From Streptomyces sp. I6 (GTDB lineage Bacteria > Actinomycetota > Actinomycetes > Streptomycetales > Streptomycetaceae): a stretch of DNA of 64,000 nucleotides. Positions 54,122-64,000 of the stretch are shown here, piece by piece. Location: NCBI GenBank assembly GCA_003725745.1, contig RHDP01000001.1:2015501-2079500 (forward strand), read 5' to 3'. A program made the translations under genes and the position numbers. Each line of letters begins with the position of its first letter. Positions within the stretch are counted from its first letter, which is position 1. A model generated the notes under the pieces. That model saw only the letters and a list, made by a program, of their open reading frames with translations. It was not told the DNA's origin and ran no database searches.

Positions 54122-54179
54122 GGAACCGAACAACCGCCGGCGGCGTATTCAGGACCGGGGGTACCGGGACGGGGCGGCA

Positions 54180-54208
54180 TTGACGCGACACGCCGGATGA
54201 CACAAGAT
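54180..54208 (+). promoter_or_regulatory. Sigma-70-type promoter for the GlnX-GlnH-PknG locus
   Basis: TTGACG at 54180-54185 and CAAGAT at 54203-54208 are separated by exactly 17 bases. They lie about 110 bases upstream of the first gene of the locus, with an AT-richer surround. The best promoter match in the window. Confidence 0.6.
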
Positions 54209-54319
54209 CCTGTGAACCCTAGGTGTGGAATGTCCGCTCCCGCGGCCATACTTCTGGCCGGAAGCCGTTCCCCACCCGCGGGATGTGGGACGCCGTCAGA
54301 TGACCGAGGGGGAGGTCAA

Positions 54320-55756
54320 TTGACACACATGCCGAGCGCGGCGGGCCCGCCCGCGCCGCCGGTGCCGCACGTCCCGGCGCAGCACGGTGCGGCACCCGGC
54401 CCGGGGTCACGCCTCTCCGGGTCGGCGCCGCCTCCGGGGCCGCCCGCGCGGCGCAGCGCCTGGGCGGAGACCTCGTCGCGGCTGCGCGCCGCCGCGACGA
54501 CGGAGCCCGGGCGGCTGCGGATCATCGGCGCCGTACTGGCGGTGCTGGTGCTGGCGTTCGGCGCGGTGACGGCGGTCGAGATCACCGGCCGTTCCGCCTC
54601 CGCCGACGCCGTGGTCGACCGCAGCCAGCCCCTCAGCGCCGACGCGGCGAGCATCTACCGCTCGCTCGCCGACGCCGACACGGCCGCCGCGAGCGGCTTC
54701 CTGGCCGGGGCACAGGAGCCCGCCGTGGTGCGCGAGCGCTATCGCGAGGACATCGCCGGCGCCTCGCGGCTGCTGGTGAAGGCCGCCGCGAACACGGACG
54801 GTTCGACGGACTCGCGGCGCTCGATCACCGCGCTCAACGAACAGCTCCCCCGCTACACGGGCCTCGTCGAGCGGGCACGGGCCGGCAACCGCCAGGGCCT
54901 CCCCCTCGGTGGGGCCTATCTGCGGTACGCGAACGAACTGATGACCACCGAACTGCTGCCCGCGGCGCAGAAGCTGTACGACGAGGAGACGGCCCGGCTC
55001 GACGAGGACCACGGCGGCGCCCGGGCGTGGCCCCTGATATCGCTGGGGCTGGGAGTGCTGGCGCTCGGCGCTCTGGTCTGGGCGCAGCGCCGCGACTACC
55101 GTCGTACGAACCGGGTGTTCAACCCCGGGCTGCTCGCCGCCACCGCGGCGTGCACGGTGACGCTGCTCTGGCTCGGCGCCGGGCACGCGCTCGCGAGGGC
55201 GGGGCTCGACGAGGCCCGGGCCGAGGGACAGCAGTCGCTGACGGTCCTCAACGACGCCAGGATCAGCAGCCTGAAGGCCCGGGCCAACGAGAATCTGACC
55301 CTGGTCGCGCGGGGCGCGGTGCTCACCGAGGACGGCAAGGGCGACAAGTACGAGGCGGACTACGCCTCGGGAATGAGTCGGCTCACCGCCTCGCTCGGCC
55401 GTGCCGGGCAGCTCGCCGGCGACGGCGCGGGCCGCACACCGGTCGCGCAGGCCGTCTCCGCGGCGTCGGAGTGGAGGAGCCGGCACCAGCAGGCAGGTGA
55501 GAGCGACCGGGCGGGCGACTACGACGGCGCGCTCGCCAAGGTGATCGGCGGCGAGGGTTCAACGGGCCAGTGCTTCGACCGGGTGGACGCCGCGCTGGAG
55601 AGGGCGCTGGCACATGAGCAGGCCGAGTTCACCGAGGCCGCCGAGGGCGGCCGGGGCGCGCTGGCGGGCCTGCCGGCCGGCGCCGCCGTGCTGGCGGTCG
55701 TCGGCGCGGCCGGCGCCGTCCTCGGCATCGGCCGCCGGCTGTCGGAGTACCGGTGA
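54320..55756 (+). CDS. glnX: GlnX-like four-helix membrane signalling protein
   Basis: About 478 residues. A Pro/Ala-rich cytoplasmic N-terminus precedes helix 1 (IIGAVLAVLVLAFGAVTAVEI). An extracellular helical domain of about 135 residues follows, then helices 2 and 3 (ISLGLGVLALGALVW; LLAATAACTVTLLWLG), a second extracellular domain of about 135 residues and helix 4 near the C-terminus. This topology and its place before a binding protein and PknG match mycobacterial and corynebacterial GlnX, which relays amino-acid sensing from GlnH to PknG. TTG 54320 sits four bases after GGAGG; ATG 54329 is an alternative. The stop overlaps a GTG of the next frame, so translation is coupled. Confidence 0.82.
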   Translation: MTHMPSAAGPPAPPVPHVPAQHGAAPGPGSRLSGSAPPPGPPARRSAWAETSSRLRAAATTEPGRLRIIGAVLAVLVLAFGAVTAVEITGRSASADAVVDRSQPLSADAASIYRSLADADTAAASGFLAGAQEPAVVRERYREDIAGASRLLVKAAANTDGSTDSRRSITALNEQLPRYTGLVERARAGNRQGLPLGGAYLRYANELMTTELLPAAQKLYDEETARLDEDHGGARAWPLISLGLGVLALGALVWAQRRDYRRTNRVFNPGLLAATAACTVTLLWLGAGHALARAGLDEARAEGQQSLTVLNDARISSLKARANENLTLVARGAVLTEDGKGDKYEADYASGMSRLTASLGRAGQLAGDGAGRTPVAQAVSAASEWRSRHQQAGESDRAGDYDGALAKVIGGEGSTGQCFDRVDAALERALAHEQAEFTEAAEGGRGALAGLPAGAAVLAVVGAAGAVLGIGRRLSEYR

Positions 55757-55767
55757 GAGGGGGAGAA

Positions 55768-56907
55768 GTGGCTGACCCGACGCCGGACGCGACCCAGGGC
55801 GGGACACCGGACGCGACTTTGGACGGGACACCGGACACGACCCAGGGCGGGACACCGGGGAACGGAACCGCGGCGGCGGCGGCCCGGCCGCGCCTTCCGC
55901 GCCAGAAGGGGCCCGTCGCGCTGCGGCTGCGCGGCTGGGGCGGTGTCACCGGAACGGCGGCGGCCTGTGCGCTCACGGCCGCCTTCACCCTGCTCCCGCT
56001 CTCGCGCGGAGGTCCGCCGGCCGGCGCGCTCCGGACTGCCGAGCCGGCGGCCGCGCCACCCGCGAAGGCCGACGACTGCACCAGCCCGGAGGCGTCGCTG
56101 CGGCCCTCGTCGGCGGACGGCCCGGCGATCGAGGAGATCAAGCAGCGCGGCCGCCTCATCGTCGGCATCGACCAGAACAGCTACCGCTGGGGCTACCGCA
56201 GGGCGGACGGCGAACTGGAGGGCTTCGACATCGATCTGGCCCGGGCGATCGCCCGGGACATTCTGGGAGACCCCGAAAAGATCATCTTCCGGGCGGTCCC
56301 GACCAACCAGCGGATCGCCGCGCTCGACAACGGCACCGTGGACCTCGTCGTACGGACGATGACCATCAACTGCGCCCGGATCAAGCAGGTCGCCTTCTCC
56401 ACGGCGTACTTCCGCACCGGCCAGCAGGTGCTGGCGCCCCGGGGGTCCACGATCACCGGCTTCGACGAGTCCCTCAAAGGCCGGCGGGTCTGCTCCGCCG
56501 AGGGCTCGACGGCCTACGACGCGCTGGAGAAGGACCCGCACGGGGCGTTGTTCAGGGACGAGGACGACGACGGACCCGGCGACCGGAACCGGCTGACGGT
56601 CCCCAACCAGCTGGACTGCCTGGTCCGGCTGCAACTCGGCGAGGTGGACGCGGTCGTGACGGACGCGGCCCTCGCCGCGGGCCAGGCCGCGCAGGACCCG
56701 TCCGTCGAGCTCAAGGGCGACGCACCGTTCACCACGGAGTACTACGGCGTGGCCGCCAGACTGGGCAGGGACGACCTTGTCCGCAGGGTCAACAAGGTGC
56801 TGGAGCAGTACCGGGCGGGCCCCTGGACGCAGGCGTACGTCAAGTGGCTGAAGGAGGACCTGCCCGGCATACCCGGCCCCCCGGCGCCGAAGTACCGGGA
56901 GGATTGA
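55768..56907 (+). CDS. glnH: GlnH-like membrane-anchored amino-acid binding protein
   Basis: A solute-binding protein family 3 domain (about 120-370) shows RLIVGIDQNSYRWGYR, LEGFDIDLARAIA, IAALDNGTVDLVVRTMTIN and FSTAYFRTGQQVL, the glutamate/glutamine/aspartate-type binding signature. It is preceded by one hydrophobic segment (about 58-78, GVTGTAAACALTAAFTLLPL in part). I see no convincing lipobox, so it may be a signal-anchored protein rather than the lipoprotein seen in mycobacteria. The first 30 residues are TPDATQGG-type repeats encoded by three 24-base units (55780-55851). GTG 55768 is 11 bases after the glnX stop. No ABC permease is present, consistent with a sensor role. Confidence 0.85.
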   Translation: MADPTPDATQGGTPDATLDGTPDTTQGGTPGNGTAAAAARPRLPRQKGPVALRLRGWGGVTGTAAACALTAAFTLLPLSRGGPPAGALRTAEPAAAPPAKADDCTSPEASLRPSSADGPAIEEIKQRGRLIVGIDQNSYRWGYRRADGELEGFDIDLARAIARDILGDPEKIIFRAVPTNQRIAALDNGTVDLVVRTMTINCARIKQVAFSTAYFRTGQQVLAPRGSTITGFDESLKGRRVCSAEGSTAYDALEKDPHGALFRDEDDDGPGDRNRLTVPNQLDCLVRLQLGEVDAVVTDAALAAGQAAQDPSVELKGDAPFTTEYYGVAARLGRDDLVRRVNKVLEQYRAGPWTQAYVKWLKEDLPGIPGPPAPKYRED

Positions 56908-57047
56908 CGCCGCCCGGCGGGCGGTCGACGGCGGCCGACGGAAGCAGGCAGTCGACGGCGGTCGACGGAAGCGGGCGGTCGGCGGGAAGGCCGCACCGGC
57001 GGGGACGCCGGGCGGCGGTGGCGAGTACACGAGCGGAGAGGTGATCG

Positions 57048-58364
57048 ATGGGCGTCGCGGGACTCCCCGGGCCGGTAATGGACCGGGACGAGGTGGACCG
57101 TGCGCTGGCGCGGCTCGGGGAGGAGCACGAGGCGATCGAGACCTCGCTCCTCGCCCTCCAGGACCATGCGGGCCGCAGACTCCTGGAGGGAGCGGAGCTG
57201 ACGGGCGTCACCAGGGACCGCTGGGCCTCCACGGAGCAGGCGATCGCGCTGCTGTGGGGCTACTTCGACGCCTACGCGGGGGCGCTGCGCTCGGCACGTG
57301 AGCTGCGGGCCCGGCGCCGCTGGCCGAGCCGGGACGACCTGGTGGCACTGACGGACCGGCTGCGCGGCCCGAGCGTCGCCGTGGCGGGTGCCGCCGCCCA
57401 GCCCGCGCCTTCCGCGGGCGGCCCCGCAAAGCTCTCGGAGCGTTTCACCCTGGAGGGCCTGGTCGGCCGGATGAACACGCTGTACGCCCGCTCGCTGGAC
57501 GTGGTGGTGGCCGCCGACACGGTGTGGTCGGCGCTGCCCGCGCGCATCGACCTGCTGGCCGCGGAGTTGCACCGGACCCGTTCCCTGGCCCACTCGGTGG
57601 GCGTGCGACCGGGCGAGCACCCCGCAGGCGACGAGCTGGACTCGATCACCCGGGAACTGTCCGCGCTGAGGGCGCAGGTCGTGTCGGACCCGCTGGCGTT
57701 CTGGTCGCCGGCGACGGCGAGTTCGGCACCCGGCGGCGGCCGGCCCGACACGGGACGCTACGACCGGGCGGCGCGTTCGCTGGAGGACGTCCGCCGGGAG
57801 ATCGAGGCGGTCCTCGCGGTGCGGCAGGACTCGGAGACGAGGCTTTTGCGGTTGCGGGACGTGCTTTCCCGGGCGGACCGCACGCTCACCGAGGCGCGCG
57901 CCGCGCGGGGCGAGGTGCTGGCGAAGATCGCCGCGTCCGAGGTCCCCGCGGTCAGCGGCCCGCCGACCGTGCTCCAGGAGCGGCTGGCCACCGCGGCGGA
58001 GTACCGCAGGCACGCCCGGTGGCACCGGCTGTCGCCGCTGCTGGAGTCACTGGAGCGGGAGGCCGAGGACGAACTGATGCGGGCGCGGGAGTCGTTGACG
58101 GCGGTGACGGCACCGCTGGCGGTCCGTGCGGAGCTGCGCGGCCGGCTCGACGCGTACAAGGCGAAGGTCGCCCGGCACGGCATGGCCGAGGACCCGCTGC
58201 TGATCGAGCGGTACGACGTGGCACGCCGGATGCTGTGGAGCGCGCCGTGCGATCTGCGCGCCGCGGAGCAGGCGGTGCTGCGCTACCAGCGTGCCGCGGC
58301 GGAGGTCCTGGTACCGCGGCAGCCGGGACCCGCGGACGGCGGCGGCCACCGGGGGGAGTCGTGA
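57048..58364 (+). CDS. Helical coiled-coil protein of the PknG locus
   Basis: A 438-residue cytosolic protein with no enzyme motif that I recognise. It is almost wholly alpha-helical, with predicted coiled-coil stretches at about 5-45, 130-205 and 235-300 and a C-terminal helical region (about 310-420), separated by two short Ala/Pro/Gly linkers. Conserved placement between glnH and pknG in Streptomyces (from memory) suggests a scaffold or adaptor for the kinase. ATG 57048 follows GAGAGGTGA at good spacing. The 140 bases before it contain two copies of a GTCGACGGCGG-type repeat and no gene. Confidence 0.75.
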   Translation: MGVAGLPGPVMDRDEVDRALARLGEEHEAIETSLLALQDHAGRRLLEGAELTGVTRDRWASTEQAIALLWGYFDAYAGALRSARELRARRRWPSRDDLVALTDRLRGPSVAVAGAAAQPAPSAGGPAKLSERFTLEGLVGRMNTLYARSLDVVVAADTVWSALPARIDLLAAELHRTRSLAHSVGVRPGEHPAGDELDSITRELSALRAQVVSDPLAFWSPATASSAPGGGRPDTGRYDRAARSLEDVRREIEAVLAVRQDSETRLLRLRDVLSRADRTLTEARAARGEVLAKIAASEVPAVSGPPTVLQERLATAAEYRRHARWHRLSPLLESLEREAEDELMRARESLTAVTAPLAVRAELRGRLDAYKAKVARHGMAEDPLLIERYDVARRMLWSAPCDLRAAEQAVLRYQRAAAEVLVPRQPGPADGGGHRGES

Positions 58365-58443
58365 TCCGCGCCCGGGCCGGCACGGCCGCCCGGCTCCCGT
58401 CCGCGGCATCGGCGACCGGGCCGGCTGACAGGCAGGGGGAACC

Positions 58444-61375
58444 GTGAGTGACCTGACGACGTGCGACCGTCCGGGCTGCGACGGAGCGTACGAGGACGTC
58501 GGCGGCGGCGAACTCTACTGCGGCACCTGCGGACTCGCCCCCGAGAGCGGGCGGGGCGCCGGCCCCGCGGCCGCGAACGCCACAGCGGCCCACTCCCCCT
58601 CGCTCGCACCCGCACCCGCACCCGCACCCGCACCCGCACCCGCACGAGCCTGCCAGCGCCCGGGCTGCGACGGAGCCTACGAGGACGTCGGCGGCGGCGA
58701 ACTCTACTGCGGCACCTGCGGACTCGCCCCGGTCGTCGCGAGGAGCGGAGCGCTGCCGCCACCCCCACCGGTGCCACGGGAGGCGGCCGGAGCGGGAGCA
58801 GCGGCTCGGCACGAATCAGCTCACCGTCGGGCTCCCGCTCGGCCCGCTCGTCCGGCTCGTCCCGTTCAGCCCCTTCCTCACGCTCGTCGACGTCCCGGCG
58901 GTCGGTCTCGGGCCGGCTGTCCCGTTCGCAGTCCGGCCGCGGCTCGGGCCGCTCGGTGTCGGTCCGCAGCTCGGGCTCCTCGACGTCCTCGTCGGGTCGG
59001 CACCGTCTGGGAGCCGGGCTGGTCTCCGTTCCGGACGTACCGCGCCCCGACCCGCGTTCGGCGGTGATGGCGGAGCCGGAAGTCCCGGAGCGGAAGCGAT
59101 TCTGCAGCCGCGGCGACTGCGGAGCGCCGGTGGGACGTGCGCGCGGCAACCGCCCGGGGCGCACGGAGGGCTTCTGCACCAAGTGCGGACATCCGTACTC
59201 CTTCGTCCCCAAACTGCGCGAGGGGACATCGTCCACGGGCAGTACGAGGTGATGGGCTGTCTGGCCCACGGCGGTCTCGGCTGGATCTACCTCGCCGTGG
59301 ACCGGGCGGTGTCCGACCGCTGGGTCGTCCTCAAGGGCCTGCTGGACACGGGCGACCAGGACGCGATGGCGGCGGCCATCTCCGAGCGCCGGTTCCTCGC
59401 GGAGATCGAGCACTCCAACATCGTCCGGATCTACAACTTCGTCGAGCACCTGGACCAGCGGACGGGCTCCATGGACGGCTACATCGTCATGGAGTACGTG
59501 GGGGGAAAGTCCCTCAAGGAGATCGCCAACGAGCGGCGCGCCCCCGACGGCAGACGCGCACCGCTGCCGGTCGAGCAGGCGTGCGCCTACGGCATCGAGG
59601 CACTGGAGGCGCTCGGGCATCTGCACAGCCGGAACCTCCTGTACTGCGACTTCAAGGTCGACAACGCCATCCAGACCGAGGACCAGCTCAAGCTCATCGA
59701 CATGGGCGCCGTGCGGCGGATGGACGACGAGGAGTCGGCGATCTACGGCACCGTCGGCTACCAGGCACCGGAGGTGGCCGAGGCCGGCCCGTCGGTCGCG
59801 TCGGACCTCTACACGGTGGCCCGCACCCTGGCGGTGCTGACGTTCGACTTCCAGGGTTTCACCAACGTGTTCGCGGACTCCCTCCCGGACCCGGCCAACA
59901 TCGAGGTCTTCCGGACGTACGAGTCGTTCTACCGGCTCCTCGTCCGCGCGACCGACCCCGACCCGGCGCGCCGGTTCGCCTCCGCGCAGGAGATGGCGGA
60001 CCAGCTGACGGGCGTGCTCAGGGAGGTCGTCGCGGTGCAGACGGGCCGGCCGCGCCCTTCGCTGTCGACCCTGTTCGGCCCGGAGCTGCGCGTCACGGAC
60101 ACGGAGCTGTTCGCCGAACTCCACGGCGAGGTCTCGGTGCTGGGCGCCGGTCGGCCCCCGCGACGGAGCCGCGGCACGCCCACGGCGGCCCGCGCCCGGC
60201 GGGTGCCGGAGGCCCCCGGTATTCCGGCGGCACCCGCGCGGCCGGCAGCACCCGCCCGGCAGGTGCCGGCGCAGGGGCCCGGGAGCCGGCCGTACACGGC
60301 CCGACCGGGTGGCGCCGGGACGGAAGCGGCGGAGACCGGTCCCGGTGCCCCCGGCGACCCGTATCCGTACGCCTCCGGCCCGGCCGGCGTCCCGCCGCAG
60401 GCGGCGCCTCCGGCACCGCGCGGGTATCGGGCGGCGGCCGGGCGGCCGCATCTCGCGGACCTGGACGTCCGCGCGACCGCACTGGCGCTGCCGGTCCCCC
60501 TCGTCGACCCGGGCGACCCCAACGCGGGCTTCCTCGCAGGTCTCCTGGCCTCCGCACCCGCCGAACTGATCGCCGCGCTGGGCGGCGCGCCCGTGAACTC
60601 CCCGGAACTGCGGCTGCGCGAGCTGCGGGCACGGCTGGAGACGGGCGAACTCACCGCCGCGGCGGCTCTCCTGGCCGATCTCGAGGCCGGGCACCCCGAC
60701 GACTGGCGGGTCGTCTGGTACCGCGGCGTCGCCTCGCTCATCACCGGCGACGACGAGACGGCCGCGCTGTCCTTCGACGCGGTCTACGACGCGTTCCCGG
60801 GCGAAGCCGCGCCCAAGCTGGCGCTCGCCCTCTGCGCCGAGGTACTGGGCCAGCCGGACAACGCCGCGGAGTACTACCGCCTGGTGTGGGCCACGGACCC
60901 GGGCTATGTGAGCGCCGCGTTCGGGCTGGCCCGGGTGCAGCTTGCGGCCGGCGACCGGGCCACGGCCGTCCGCACGCTCGACTCCGTCCCCGAGTCGTCG
61001 ATCCACTACACGGCCGCCCGGGTCGCCGCGGTGCGGGCACGGCTGCGCCGGCGCGCCGCGGAGGATCCGCTCATCGGCGACCTCTCGGCGGCCGCCGACC
61101 AGGTCACGGCGCTGGAGGGGCTCGGACTGGACGCGGTGCGGCGTGAACGGCTGTCCACGGAGGTTCTGGGTACGGCGCTGGACTGGGTACTCTCCGGCAG
61201 TACCGGCGCCCGGCCGGCGAGGACCGTCCTGCTCGGCAGCGAACTCGACGAACGCGGACTGCGATTCGGCCTCGAACGCTCGTTCAGGGTGCTTGCCCGG
61301 CTCGCGCCGGACGGCGCGGAGCGCATCGAACTGGTGGAGCGGGCCAACCGCTACCGCCCCCGGACGTGGGTGTGA
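58444..61375 (+). CDS. pknG: PknG-type serine/threonine kinase with zinc ribbons and TPRs, two single-base breaks as read
   Basis: A soluble kinase of about 977 residues once two breaks are repaired. The N-terminus has two near-identical zinc ribbons (RPGCDGAYEDVGGGELYCGTCG), a long Ser/Arg-rich linker, then the PknG rubredoxin-like unit (FCSRGDCGAPVG ... FCTKCGHPYSF). The kinase domain shows GCLAHGGLGWIYLAVD, catalytic Lys in VVLKGLL, YCDFKVDN (Asp, no HRD Arg, as in PknG) and IDMGAVRR. C-terminal TPR-like helices end it. Breaks: the C run at 58762-58766 and the G run at 59222-59225 each lack one base; repair gives LPPPPTGATGGG and KLREGDIVHGQYE. In relatives PknG controls 2-oxoglutarate metabolism through an FHA protein. 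Confidence 0.92.
58471..58729 (+). repeat. Duplicated zinc-ribbon module in pknG
   Basis: 58471-58540 and 58660-58729 are 70-base copies differing at one base (189-base spacing). They are separated by Ala-rich sequence with six GCACCC units (58606-58641) coding Ala-Pro. Confidence 0.93.
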
Positions 61376-61459
61376 TGCCGCGCCGTCGGGGGACACGACC
61401 CCGGACGTCCGGCGGAAGGACCTGGGCGTGCCCGGCACATCAAGGCGAGGTGGAAGCGA

Positions 61460-63052
61460 ATGACGCCGCAGATGCCCCAGCAGGCGGCCTGGTCGAAGTG
61501 CCCCGGCTGCGAGGAACCGCTCGAATCCGGCGACCGGTTCTGCGGAGCGTGCGGGTACGACCTCTCCGTCGTGCGCCGACCGCCCCGGGAGCGCCCCGCC
61601 GCCGCCTCGGGTACCCGGGTGGACTGGCCCGAGGCGCCCCAGGCCCCCGAACCGGGCGGCTCCGGCCTGCCGGGGACGCTGCAGCGGCCCGGAGAGCTTC
61701 CGGGTACCGACTCGGGCGGCCGTGAACTGCCCGCGCCCCTTCCCCACTTCGACGGCCCGGATGCGGTACCGGCCTCCGCCACGGCGCCTCCGGCGGTCCG
61801 GCAGACCGGTGCTGAAGCGCGGTTCGGGCCGGCCGCGCCGACCGCGCCGGGCGAACCCGCGCCCGGCGTACCCGGTCCGTCCCCGGCCTCCGGACCGGGG
61901 GCCGCTCCGGGCGCCGTACCCGCCTCCGGACAGGGACCGGGGTCAGGGCAGGGACCGGGACCGGGACCGGGACCGGAGTCAGGACAGGGACCGGGGTCAG
62001 GACAGGTTCCAGGGTACGGCGGCCGCCACCCGGCCGCGTCCGGCCCCCTCGCCGCCGTACACCACGGTGGGCACCCCGGCGGGCACCCCGGCGGGGGCTC
62101 CGGCGGGGGCTCCGTCGCGCCCCCGCCCGCCGCGAAGCTCTGCGTCGCGTGCCGCGCCGGCCGGGTGGATCCCGACGGCTACTGCGAGCACTGCGGGCAC
62201 GCCCAGCCGCGCGAGCGCGATCACATGGAGCAGGAGCTAGCGGGCGTGGCCGCGGTCAGCGACCGGGGCCTGCGGCACCACCGCAACGAGGACTCGTTCG
62301 CGGTGTCGTCCACGGCCCTGCCCGACGGCTCACCGGCCGTGATCGCGATCGTCTGCGACGGCGTGTCCTCGGCCACCCGGCCCGACGAGGCGTCCTCGGC
62401 CGCGGCGAGCTGTGCCAGCGAGCACCTGCTTGCGTCGCTGCCCCGGGGCACGCATCCGCAGCAGGCCATGCACGAGGCGATCCTCGCCGCCGCCTCCGCG
62501 GTCAACTCCCTGGCGGTGGAGCCCGGCGCGGCTATGGAGCACGACCCGCACCGCCACCGCAACGCTCCCGCGTGCACGCTGGTGGGCGCCGTCACCGCCG
62601 GTGAGCTGCTGGTGGTGGGCTGGGTCGGCGACAGCCGGGCGTACTGGATCCCGGACGACGGCGACGGCCCGCCCGCCCGGCTCACCGAGGACGACTCCTG
62701 GGCGGCCCAGATGGTCTCCGCCGGCCTGATGAGCGAGGCCGAGGCGTACGCGGACGAGCGCGCGCACGCGATCACCGGCTGGCTCGGCGCGGACGCGTGG
62801 GAGCTGGAACCCCACACGGCCGCGTTCAAGCCGGACCGCCCCGGTGTGGTGGTGGTCTGCACGGACGGTCTGTGGAACTACGCGGAGGCGCCGGAGGAGA
62901 TGGCGCAGGTCCTGCCGCCCGACGCGGCGGGCCGTCCACTGCACGGGGCGCGGGTCCTGGTCGGCCATGCGCTCGACGGCGGGGGCCACGACAACGTAAC
63001 AGTGGCCGTGCTCCCGTTCGCGATGCGGCGGCAGGGGGCAGGATCGGCCTGA
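61460..63052 (+). CDS. PP2C-family serine/threonine phosphatase with zinc ribbons
   Basis: A 530-residue PPM phosphatase. Two zinc ribbons, KCPGCEEPL ... FCGACGYDL (about 13-35) and LCVACRAG ... YCEHCGHAQ (about 228-250), flank a 190-residue Pro/Gly-rich linker with GQGPGSG repeats. The catalytic domain has VSDRGLRHHRNEDSF, the CDGVSS metal motif, VGWVGDSRAYW, VVCTDGLWN and GGHDNVTVAV. It lies 85 bases after pknG with GAGGTGG before the ATG. The shared zinc-ribbon design and adjacency make it the likely opposing phosphatase for PknG or its substrates. Cytosolic. Confidence 0.92.
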   Translation: MTPQMPQQAAWSKCPGCEEPLESGDRFCGACGYDLSVVRRPPRERPAAASGTRVDWPEAPQAPEPGGSGLPGTLQRPGELPGTDSGGRELPAPLPHFDGPDAVPASATAPPAVRQTGAEARFGPAAPTAPGEPAPGVPGPSPASGPGAAPGAVPASGQGPGSGQGPGPGPGPESGQGPGSGQVPGYGGRHPAASGPLAAVHHGGHPGGHPGGGSGGGSVAPPPAAKLCVACRAGRVDPDGYCEHCGHAQPRERDHMEQELAGVAAVSDRGLRHHRNEDSFAVSSTALPDGSPAVIAIVCDGVSSATRPDEASSAAASCASEHLLASLPRGTHPQQAMHEAILAAASAVNSLAVEPGAAMEHDPHRHRNAPACTLVGAVTAGELLVVGWVGDSRAYWIPDDGDGPPARLTEDDSWAAQMVSAGLMSEAEAYADERAHAITGWLGADAWELEPHTAAFKPDRPGVVVVCTDGLWNYAEAPEEMAQVLPPDAAGRPLHGARVLVGHALDGGGHDNVTVAVLPFAMRRQGAGSA

Positions 63053-63146
63053 CCCTGAACACGGTCACGCCCCCGCGCCCCCGCGTCCGTTCGGCACCCC
63101 CACGCCACGTCTGTCTGCCCAGCTGAGCATCGAGGAGCCCGTCCGG

Positions 63147-64000
63147 ATGGCCGATTTCTCCAAGACGAACGCGCCGTGGTTCTCCGTCGAGGTGTACCAG
63201 AACGAGTTCCTGCCCGAAGGCGGACGCGAGGTGAACGCGATCGTGACGGTCACCTCCGCAGGCGGCGGCACGAGCGGCGGCGCTCCCCTCATCGGGGCCT
63301 CCGCTTCGGCCGCCTCCCTGCCGGGACGGCGGACGGACGCCGCCGTGGTCGTGATGGTCGACTGCTCGGGCTCCATGGACTATCCGCCCACGAAGATGCG
63401 CAACGCGCGCGACGCCACGGCCGCGGCCGTCGACACCCTGCGCGACGGCACCGCGTTCGCCGTGGTCTCGGGAACCCACGTGGCCGCGGAGGTGTATCCG
63501 GGCGGCGGCCGGCTGGCGACGGCCGACGCGACGACCCGGGCCCGGGCCAAGGAGGCGCTGCGCGGGCTGAGCACCGGCGGCGGCACCGCGATCGGCACCT
63601 GGCTGCGGCTGGCGGGCCGGTTGCTGGGCGGCGCAGACGTGCCGATCCGGCACGGCATCCTGCTCACCGACGGCCGCAACGAGCACGAGACGCCTGAGGA
63701 CCTGCGTGCCGCCCTGGACGCCTGCACGGGGCGCTTCACCTGCGACGCGCGGGGCGTGGGGACCGACTGGGAGGTCAAGGAGGTCACCGGCATCGCCTCC
63801 GCGCTGCTCGGCACGGCCGACATCGTCGCGGATCCGTCCGGGCTCGCCGCCGACTTCACAAGGATGATGGAGAACGCGATGGGCAAGGAGGTCGCGGACG
63901 TGACCCTGCGGCTCTGGACCCCGGTCGGCGCGGAGCTCGCGTTCGTGAAGCAGGTGGCGCCTGCGGTGGAGGATCTGACCGGCAGACGCACGGAGGCGGG
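63147..64000 (+). CDS. von Willebrand factor A domain protein, N-terminal part (cut by window end)
   Basis: 284 codons are visible. MADFSKTNAPWFSVEVYQNEFLPEGG (quoted as MADFSKTNAPWF and VEVYQNEFLPEG) leads into a VWA domain with the metal-ion-dependent adhesion motif DCSGSMD (about 73-79), a GGGTAIGTWL Thr-containing loop and LLTDGRNEHE. It has no signal peptide, so it is intracellular. ATG 63147 has GAGGAG nine bases upstream. Such proteins follow the phosphatase in the Streptomyces pknG neighbourhood and may bind metal-dependent partners of the pathway; that role is inferred only from position. Confidence 0.88.
   Translation, partial: MADFSKTNAPWFSVEVYQNEFLPEGGREVNAIVTVTSAGGGTSGGAPLIGASASAASLPGRRTDAAVVVMVDCSGSMDYPPTKMRNARDATAAAVDTLRDGTAFAVVSGTHVAAEVYPGGGRLATADATTRARAKEALRGLSTGGGTAIGTWLRLAGRLLGGADVPIRHGILLTDGRNEHETPEDLRAALDACTGRFTCDARGVGTDWEVKEVTGIASALLGTADIVADPSGLAADFTRMMENAMGKEVADVTLRLWTPVGAELAFVKQVAPAVEDLTGRRTEA

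Follow-up and report, generated by a model that had tools for sequence, protein, structure and literature searches.

A conserved seven-gene pknG locus of Streptomyces that may join an amino-acid-sensing relay to a cc-PP2C-VWA-FHA unit

In mycobacteria and Corynebacterium glutamicum, the steps of a relay leading from the binding protein GlnH through the membrane protein GlnX and the kinase PknG to GarA/OdhI have been worked out (PMC6069109, PMC9769921, PMC8546545), and the available parts of one of these reports describe glnX, glnH and pknG as a three-gene operon in both groups (PMC6069109). Whether the phosphorylation of GarA is reversed at all in mycobacterial cells is left open in the available sections of another study (PMC5448819). 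Here, we analyse a pknG locus in a 64,000-nucleotide stretch of contig RHDP01000001.1 of Streptomyces sp. I6 (the whole stretch is hereafter called the window), which carries glnX, glnH, a gene for a putative coiled-coil protein (cc), pknG, pp2c and vwa on the + strand from position 54320 to the window end, neighbouring genes being separated by at most about 140 bp. An earlier note on this DNA had ended the locus at vwa. The six same-strand genes that it described are all present, but vwa continues past the window end and fha was found just downstream of it, so that the locus comprises seven genes.

Like the described relay, this locus combines the same sensor, transducer and kinase families in the order glnX-glnH-pknG, and the genome encodes a GarA/OdhI-type protein with an ETTS motif. 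It differs from it by the addition of cc, pp2c, vwa and fha, by zinc-ribbon motifs on PknG and GarA, and by an extracytoplasmic function (ECF)-type promoter. The GlnH of C. glutamicum is a lipoprotein, whereas that of the window has a helix and no lipobox, and the rubredoxin domain of PknG is present here and in mycobacteria but absent in corynebacteria. We interpret the locus, with moderate confidence, as a conserved operon of seven genes for Ser/Thr phosphorylation in which two modules are joined, the GlnH-GlnX-PknG relay and a cc-PP2C-VWA-FHA unit. The open-access papers searched contained no account of PP2C, VWA and FHA genes at a pknG locus.

The earlier note had named absence of the linkage outside this strain as a refutation of its proposal; the linkage turned out to be genus-wide and to reach other families and another class. 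Counts from genome samples are lower bounds, since only part of the first-look candidates was scored in many genomes. In the order sample, PknG_TPR was matched in 112 of 119 genomes, GlnX in 112/119 and VWA_3_C, the domain with which the VWA protein of the window ends, in 113/119. Among the 115 VWA_3_C places of the order, 105 follow the main pknG on the same strand at a distance of 2.4-5.1 kb; the other ten comprise five on another contig than pknG, three in PknG-less genomes, one extra copy and one beside a second PknG. In the fragmented genome G538, PknG was found without GlnX or VWA_3_C, and in G553 PknG and GlnX were found without VWA_3_C. All seven genes are present at 40 of the 42 main loci of the same genus, the two misses by tblastn being vwa in L077 and pp2c in L080. 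A cc-based search yielded 80 named loci, all from Streptomyces and taken from at least 568 confirmed matches; among the matches listed, the seven genes stand in order at 54 of the 55 named Streptomyces loci longer than 21 kb, the last one (L188) showing no glnX.

In all, 98 pknG neighbourhoods were compared. All seven genes occur at 6/6 loci of family f97, and they are rearranged yet together at most loci of f68, f69 and f77 and at single loci of f62, f91 and f38. The usual order in f68 is cc-pknG-pp2c-vwa-fha-glnX-glnH, glnX and glnH mostly stand ahead of pknG-pp2c-vwa-fha in f69, f77, f62 and f91 (detection varied, and some loci are cut by contig ends), and f38, which belongs to another class, has cc-pknG-pp2c-vwa-fha with glnX-glnH on the opposite strand. 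In the class sample, PknG was found in 98 of 296 genomes, and 66 of the 68 genomes with VWA_3_C also have PknG. Outside the genus, 32 of 54 VWA_3_C places lie directly downstream of PknG_TPR; of the 22 remaining, the three that were examined, from f69, are second PP2C-VWA-FHA sets, and G353- and G272-type loci were seen as pknG neighbourhoods only. The recurrence of this gene order in other genera and families is far more than chance would give. Family f3, which we take for the mycobacterial family, contributed five loci (none of genus g3), four of which show glnX, glnH and pknG and the fifth only pknG. Because these loci show glnX-glnH-pknG or less while the seven-gene form is widespread, the apparent extension looks ancestral. 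This suggests that the seven-gene form is the common or ancestral one and that mycobacteria and corynebacteria have a reduced version of it with three genes; the earlier description of an 'extended' locus probably had the direction wrong.

On the sensor side, GlnX scores 491.8 bits against NF058618 (cut-off 250) and 196 bits against NF041460, the equivalog model for kinase G-activating GlnX (cut-off 780), and is thus a member of the family and not that equivalog. The family match and four hydrophobic helices agree with the four-helix membrane protein described earlier. Directly beside glnX, glnH encodes a protein with an SBP_bac_3 domain (93 bits, cut-off 26.4) and a single N-terminal hydrophobic helix, again in line with its description as an anchored binding protein. 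No lipobox pattern was found within its first 115 residues, and its anchor differs in type from a lipoprotein anchor. A GlnX-GlnH fusion, suggested by long frames, was rejected, as 86/86 adjacent pairs are separate. Among GlnX proteins with a tblastn score of at least 60, the motif R-[LIRV]-x-[ED]-[YF]-x forms the C-terminus in 155 of the 157 read. In the available text of one report, GlnX termini are proposed as possible ligands of the PknG TPR domain (PMC6069109), and the conserved tail fits this proposal.

The putative coiled-coil protein matched no known family at E 0.001. Its best E value against PDB sequences was 0.003, mostly with designed coiled-coil, flagellin and viral chains, which we attribute to chance or composition, and PHROGs gave no match for cc, vwa or fha. 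The closest named cc relatives among the matches listed, from S. pacificus and S. wuyuanensis, are 95-96% identical. A weak similarity between cc and PknG was discounted because the cc profile had taken in a fused cc-pknG frame (L072). The phosphatase matches PF13672 (PP2C_2) with 49.4 bits (cut-off 24). PP2C phosphatases of the Stp1/PstP type are partnered with Hanks kinases; as in those pairs, pp2c lies beside a Ser/Thr kinase gene, but its product carries two zinc-ribbon motifs, is linked to PknG and scores only 99.7 bits against the Stp1-type model NF033484 (cut-off 230). In L046, the related fha gene codes for a protein of 415 aa that carries zinc-ribbon motifs (DZR 19.1 bits against a cut-off of 27.3) and, at its C-terminus, an FHA domain. 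The FHA protein of the locus is an obvious candidate phospho-reader, absent from the earlier note since its gene lies outside the window. A defence system was considered and rejected, the only PADLOC matches being generic kinase ones to P0004 (25 of the 29 shown).

Zinc ribbons were called by cysteine pattern, and among the proteins scanned with Pfam only the GarA of this genome passes a cut-off. PknG has two near-identical tandem ribbon motifs in addition to its rubredoxin, and PP2C has two ribbon motifs. The proposal that kinase and phosphatase both carry zinc ribbons thus stands as far as cysteine patterns go, but no Pfam ribbon model rises above its cut-off: none matched the N-terminal ribbons of PknG, and those for PP2C remain below (DZR 24.5 versus 27.3, the others likewise). 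Ribbon motifs are also found on the FHA protein and on the unlinked GarA/OdhI orthologue. Shared targeting and redox or zinc control, raised in the earlier note, are candidate roles for them. At the 42 main same-genus loci, PP2C has two ribbons in 39 and one in three, and fha at least one in 41 (strict pattern). The PknG motif, C-x4-C...C-x2-C, occurs in one to three tandem copies in relatives (three in L062), which, together with the near-identical duplicated DNA at 58462-58722, indicates that ribbon number varies by tandem duplication. The strict pattern detects it in 71 of the 86 loci having at least one of pp2c, vwa and fha. Among the 15 unflagged loci, a ribbon is seen by eye in ten (L048, L062, L067, L077, L085, L088, L104, L105, L113 and L125), L101 has a three-cysteine form, L135 is cut by the contig end, and L059 and L114 were unreadable by script. 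Twelve loci have no module in view; ten of them lack the PknG ribbon, and L122, which has it, is cut at the contig end.

The genome of Streptomyces sp. I6 gave ten FHA matches, not all resolved into frames. One of them, a GarA/OdhI-type protein (L139, in the region of C1:661810), has a long N-terminal extension, a ribbon recognized by Zn_Ribbon_1 (33.9 bits, cut-off 25) and the ETTS motif before its FHA domain. A GarA match was obtained in 31/31 genomes searched, and 30 loci were read; 25 of these 30 orthologues bear a ribbon, and none does in f3 (4/4) and f95 (1/1). The main pknG loci of f3 and f95 have no PknG ribbon and no extra genes. At the main loci, the losses of the PknG ribbon, of the GarA ribbon and of the second module thus coincide.

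In the interpretation favoured here, these proteins would act as follows. GlnH, tethered outside the membrane, would bind an acidic amino acid and act on GlnX, as predicted from orthology and from the GlnX tail. The cytoplasmic tail of GlnX (R-L-x-E-Y-R) could then dock the TPR domain of PknG and switch the kinase on, after which GarA, and possibly the FHA protein of the locus, would be phosphorylated or bind. PP2C, FHA, VWA and cc would constitute a phosphate-removing and phospho-reading unit for FHA-type substrates, foremost GarA/OdhI, which in these lineages appears to bear a zinc ribbon of its own at the N-terminus, as well as a TST or ETTS motif. In this unit, PP2C would remove phosphate and the FHA protein would read phosphothreonine, both being predicted to act on GarA-type substrates. 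The weakest step is that the ribbons of the kinase, the phosphatase, the FHA protein and GarA may bring them to a common scaffold, either cc or vwa. In Streptomyces, the operon would be expressed from an ECF-sigma promoter, the site of which is placed by conservation. A broader version of this scheme, which we regard as rather doubtful, would be that many actinobacteria with PknG possess a ribbon-assembled PknG-PP2C-FHA-GarA complex on a cc/VWA scaffold, with phosphorylation and its removal in one place, and that the mycobacterial and corynebacterial pathway is a remnant left after loss of the scaffold module and the ribbons.

Several observations weigh against a single system acting on GarA. 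According to the available parts of two reports, C. glutamicum dephosphorylates OdhI with Ppp (PMC9769921) and, in vitro, GarA is a target of PstP (PMC5448819), so that dephosphorylation of GarA may fall to a housekeeping phosphatase and the PP2C of the locus may serve something else. Among the 98 PknG genomes of the class, 32 have no VWA_3_C match (23 from f3, nine from other families). L119 has pp2c and no PknG ribbon, and L111 has a PknG ribbon and no module within its 20 kb. The GarA ribbon is kept in the four PknG-less genomes read, and ribbons are therefore not only for targeting PknG. The f95 genome and one f3 genome hold second pknG copies with vwa or a whole set, and the loss in f3 and f95 may represent one or two events only, judging from a PknG tree that was used for this question alone (six of the 42 main same-genus rows, 14 rows left out by motif, and a long-branch warning).

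The PknG-less genomes are a further point of this kind. PknG is absent in six of the 104 same-genus sample genomes and in seven genomes of the order, in which GlnX is unmatched or weakly so (G334); five of the six same-genus genomes give no GlnX match and the sixth a weak one. At all six loci, glnX, glnH and pknG have been lost jointly, and cc, pp2c and fha are kept in order, with open cc and pp2c frames; vwa is kept in two, broken in one and gone in three. A C-terminal scrap of pknG lies between cc and pp2c at five of these loci, and L151 shows only chance-level matches. In a cc tree of 49 rows, from which L278 was left out, the other five PknG-less rows fall in three separate supported clades, the placement of the long rows L279 and L280 being unsure by program warning. 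The ratio of nonsynonymous to synonymous substitution rates (dN/dS) of cc is 0.13 for the PknG-less L150 versus L151; L149 and L280, each compared with PknG-bearing relatives, give 0.28 and 0.24, whereas two pairs that both have PknG give 0.14 and 0.20. The pp2c ratio is 0.28 (L150/L151), 0.35 and 0.40 (L149 and L280), compared with 0.25 and 0.33 for PknG-bearing pairs. These values suggest that selection on cc and pp2c persists in PknG-less genomes, perhaps somewhat relaxed. It is because glnX-glnH-pknG are lost as a block while cc, pp2c and fha are kept that we distinguish two joined modules. The second has a role where PknG is absent and does not have to counteract this kinase, and its persistence suggests that another kinase also feeds the cc-PP2C-VWA-FHA unit. 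The genes that the earlier note read as a candidate scaffold and an opposing phosphatase, cc and pp2c, are built into the locus, but not as simple accessories of PknG.

The same data could indicate two independent systems co-expressed in one operon, the relay leading to GarA and metabolism and the cc-PP2C-VWA-FHA unit depending on another Ser/Thr kinase with other substrates. We consider this a real possibility, if not a probable one. It would agree with the block loss in at least three clades of the cc tree (five of the six loci included), with the gene order of f68, in which glnX-glnH lie beyond fha, with three second sets in f69 that carry PP2C-VWA-FHA with partial or no PknG, and with the presence of vwa without the usual glnX-glnH at six of the seven second PknG_TPR loci of the same genus. 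However, the modules, even where rearranged, remain neighbours in different families and in one other class, an extra copy comprises the complete seven-gene set (L268), and PknG itself bears the ribbon motif that accompanies the second module.

The state of the reading frames also counts against a functional two-module operon in this strain, those of pknG and fha being broken. The rubredoxin, kinase and PknG_TPR domains, all above cut-off, support the PknG-type kinase gene of the earlier note, yet they lie in two frames in this assembly, so that the gene is not one open frame: the ribbons are in frame 1 (open reading frame (ORF) 58444-59067), the rubredoxin in frame 3 (ORF 58461-59252) and the kinase and TPR parts in frame 2 (ORF 59183-61375). 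The TPR of this pknG is the sole PknG_TPR match of the whole genome, and fha is spread over at least two frames. Both genes might then be pseudogenes and the system dead in this strain, which we find unlikely. The assembly is 87.4% complete in two contigs and further FHA genes of the genome (L140/L144 and L141/L146) look frame-broken, as assembly indels would give. Aligned with the two closest relatives, the kinase and TPR parts match at 82-84% and have no other breaks. In the two closest named relatives, pknG forms a single frame (1047 and 932 aa); it is whole in L185, L186 and L046, where all three domains share one frame of 914 aa. A kinase-motif frame was obtained from 114 of 122 Streptomyces loci, and in a strict pattern test ribbon, rubredoxin, kinase and length were found in a single frame in 95 of these 114; among the remaining 19, 16 miss the rubredoxin pattern (L058 is also short, 676 aa) and the frames of L073, L238 and L241 are short. 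As relatives carry pknG and fha whole, assembly error is likelier than decay. A different origin is suggested by TerY-phosphatase-kinase triads, in which VWA, PP2C and kinase proteins with zinc ribbons come together in tellurium-resistance-linked systems. A stress triad of this type that had captured a nutrient sensor would contain the same kinds of genes, and the VWA proteins of six second loci (L083-L088) all carry a C-terminal zinc-ribbon motif (6/6). We nevertheless regard this origin as most unlikely, because the VWA protein of the window matches only VWA and VWA_3_C models, with no TerY model at E 0.001, the kinase has PknG domains, and GlnX-GlnH, FHA and cc are present in addition.

Of 114 Streptomyces regions upstream of glnX, 107 contain the pattern GGAACN-N16-CGTN, versus 0.02 expected per region from flank density. 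Its stricter form, GGAAC[CT]-N14..18-CGTA, has one match in the 64-kb window, at 54122-54150, and gave none in 39 loci from other families. From this conservation, we predict an ECF-type promoter upstream of glnX throughout Streptomyces. The promoter previously placed at 54180 was not upheld, its TTGACG box being common only to the two closest of 12 aligned relatives. The conserved site ends with CGTA or CGTG, and with CGTC in 1/107; sigma-E sites are described, in the available text, as having a GGAAC-like -35 and mostly a CGTC-type -10 element (PMC6767563), so that sigma-E is no more than a possible sigma factor for this promoter. A loose form of the inverted repeat GGCCA-N6-TGGCC is present in 30 of the 114 upstream regions, a count made without chance control. 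A conserved ACAAGATC box (window 54198-54215) lies between the promoter and glnX and is a possible operator or second promoter element.

Extra copies take several forms. The complete extra set, L268, is on contig 144 of an f3 genome that has other PknG_TPR genes, and its PknG bears an N-terminal ribbon motif. Among the second PknG_TPR loci of the same genus, L083-L088 are paralogous pairs of pknG and vwa that lack pp2c, fha and the usual glnX-glnH, L083 alone having weak cc-like and glnX-like matches, and L089 has no vwa. The second PP2C-VWA-FHA sets of f69 are L265-L267, the neighbour of the L267 set being a PknG-like protein that gives no TPR match. In the f95 genome, L269 (contig 260) is a second pknG-like copy, preceded by a cc-like piece and followed by a vwa with a C-terminal ribbon motif. 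The features of the Streptomyces sp. I6 locus are collected in Table 1.

Table 1. Positions of the features of the pknG locus, numbered from the first nucleotide of the window
Feature	Position	Strand	Basis or remark
Predicted ECF-type promoter GGAACC-N16-CGTATTC, upstream of glnX	54122..54150	+	Conservation in Streptomyces
Inverted repeat GGCCA-N6-TGGCC in the leader	54244..54259	Unassigned	Alignment, part of the genus
glnX, four-helix membrane sensor-transducer, tail RRLSEYR	54320..55756	+	NF058618; start codon uncertain
glnH, membrane-tethered solute-binding protein	55753..56907	+	SBP_bac_3; 4-bp overlap with glnX
cc, 438 aa, conserved C-terminal block ELRGRLDAY...LWSAPCDL	57048..58364	+	No known family
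pknG, frame interrupted at two or more places in the assembly	58444..61375	+	Single open frame in relatives
PknG zinc-ribbon motif 1	58462..58533	+	Cysteine pattern
PknG zinc-ribbon motif 2, near-identical tandem copy of motif 1	58651..58722	+	Cysteine pattern
PknG rubredoxin domain	58995..59216	+	PF16919, 113 bits
PknG kinase domain	59243..59863	+	PF00069, 89 bits
PknG TPR domain	60434..61366	+	PF16918, 314 bits
pp2c, with zinc-ribbon motifs at 61499-61564 and 62141-62206	61460..63052	+	PF13672; cysteine pattern
vwa, VWA protein with VWA_3_C	63147..64000, on to window-equivalent 64505	+	PF18571, 85 bits; PF13519/PF13768
fha	Window-equivalent about 64608-65804, outside the window	Same operon	Contig sequence beyond the window

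The reversal of PknG output is only partly known, and in an antibiotic-producing genus this locus supplies candidates for a phosphatase and a phospho-reader that are linked to the kinase gene, together with a predicted genus-wide promoter. The conserved tail of GlnX is a candidate docking site for PknG, and natural kinase-less strains separate the two modules.

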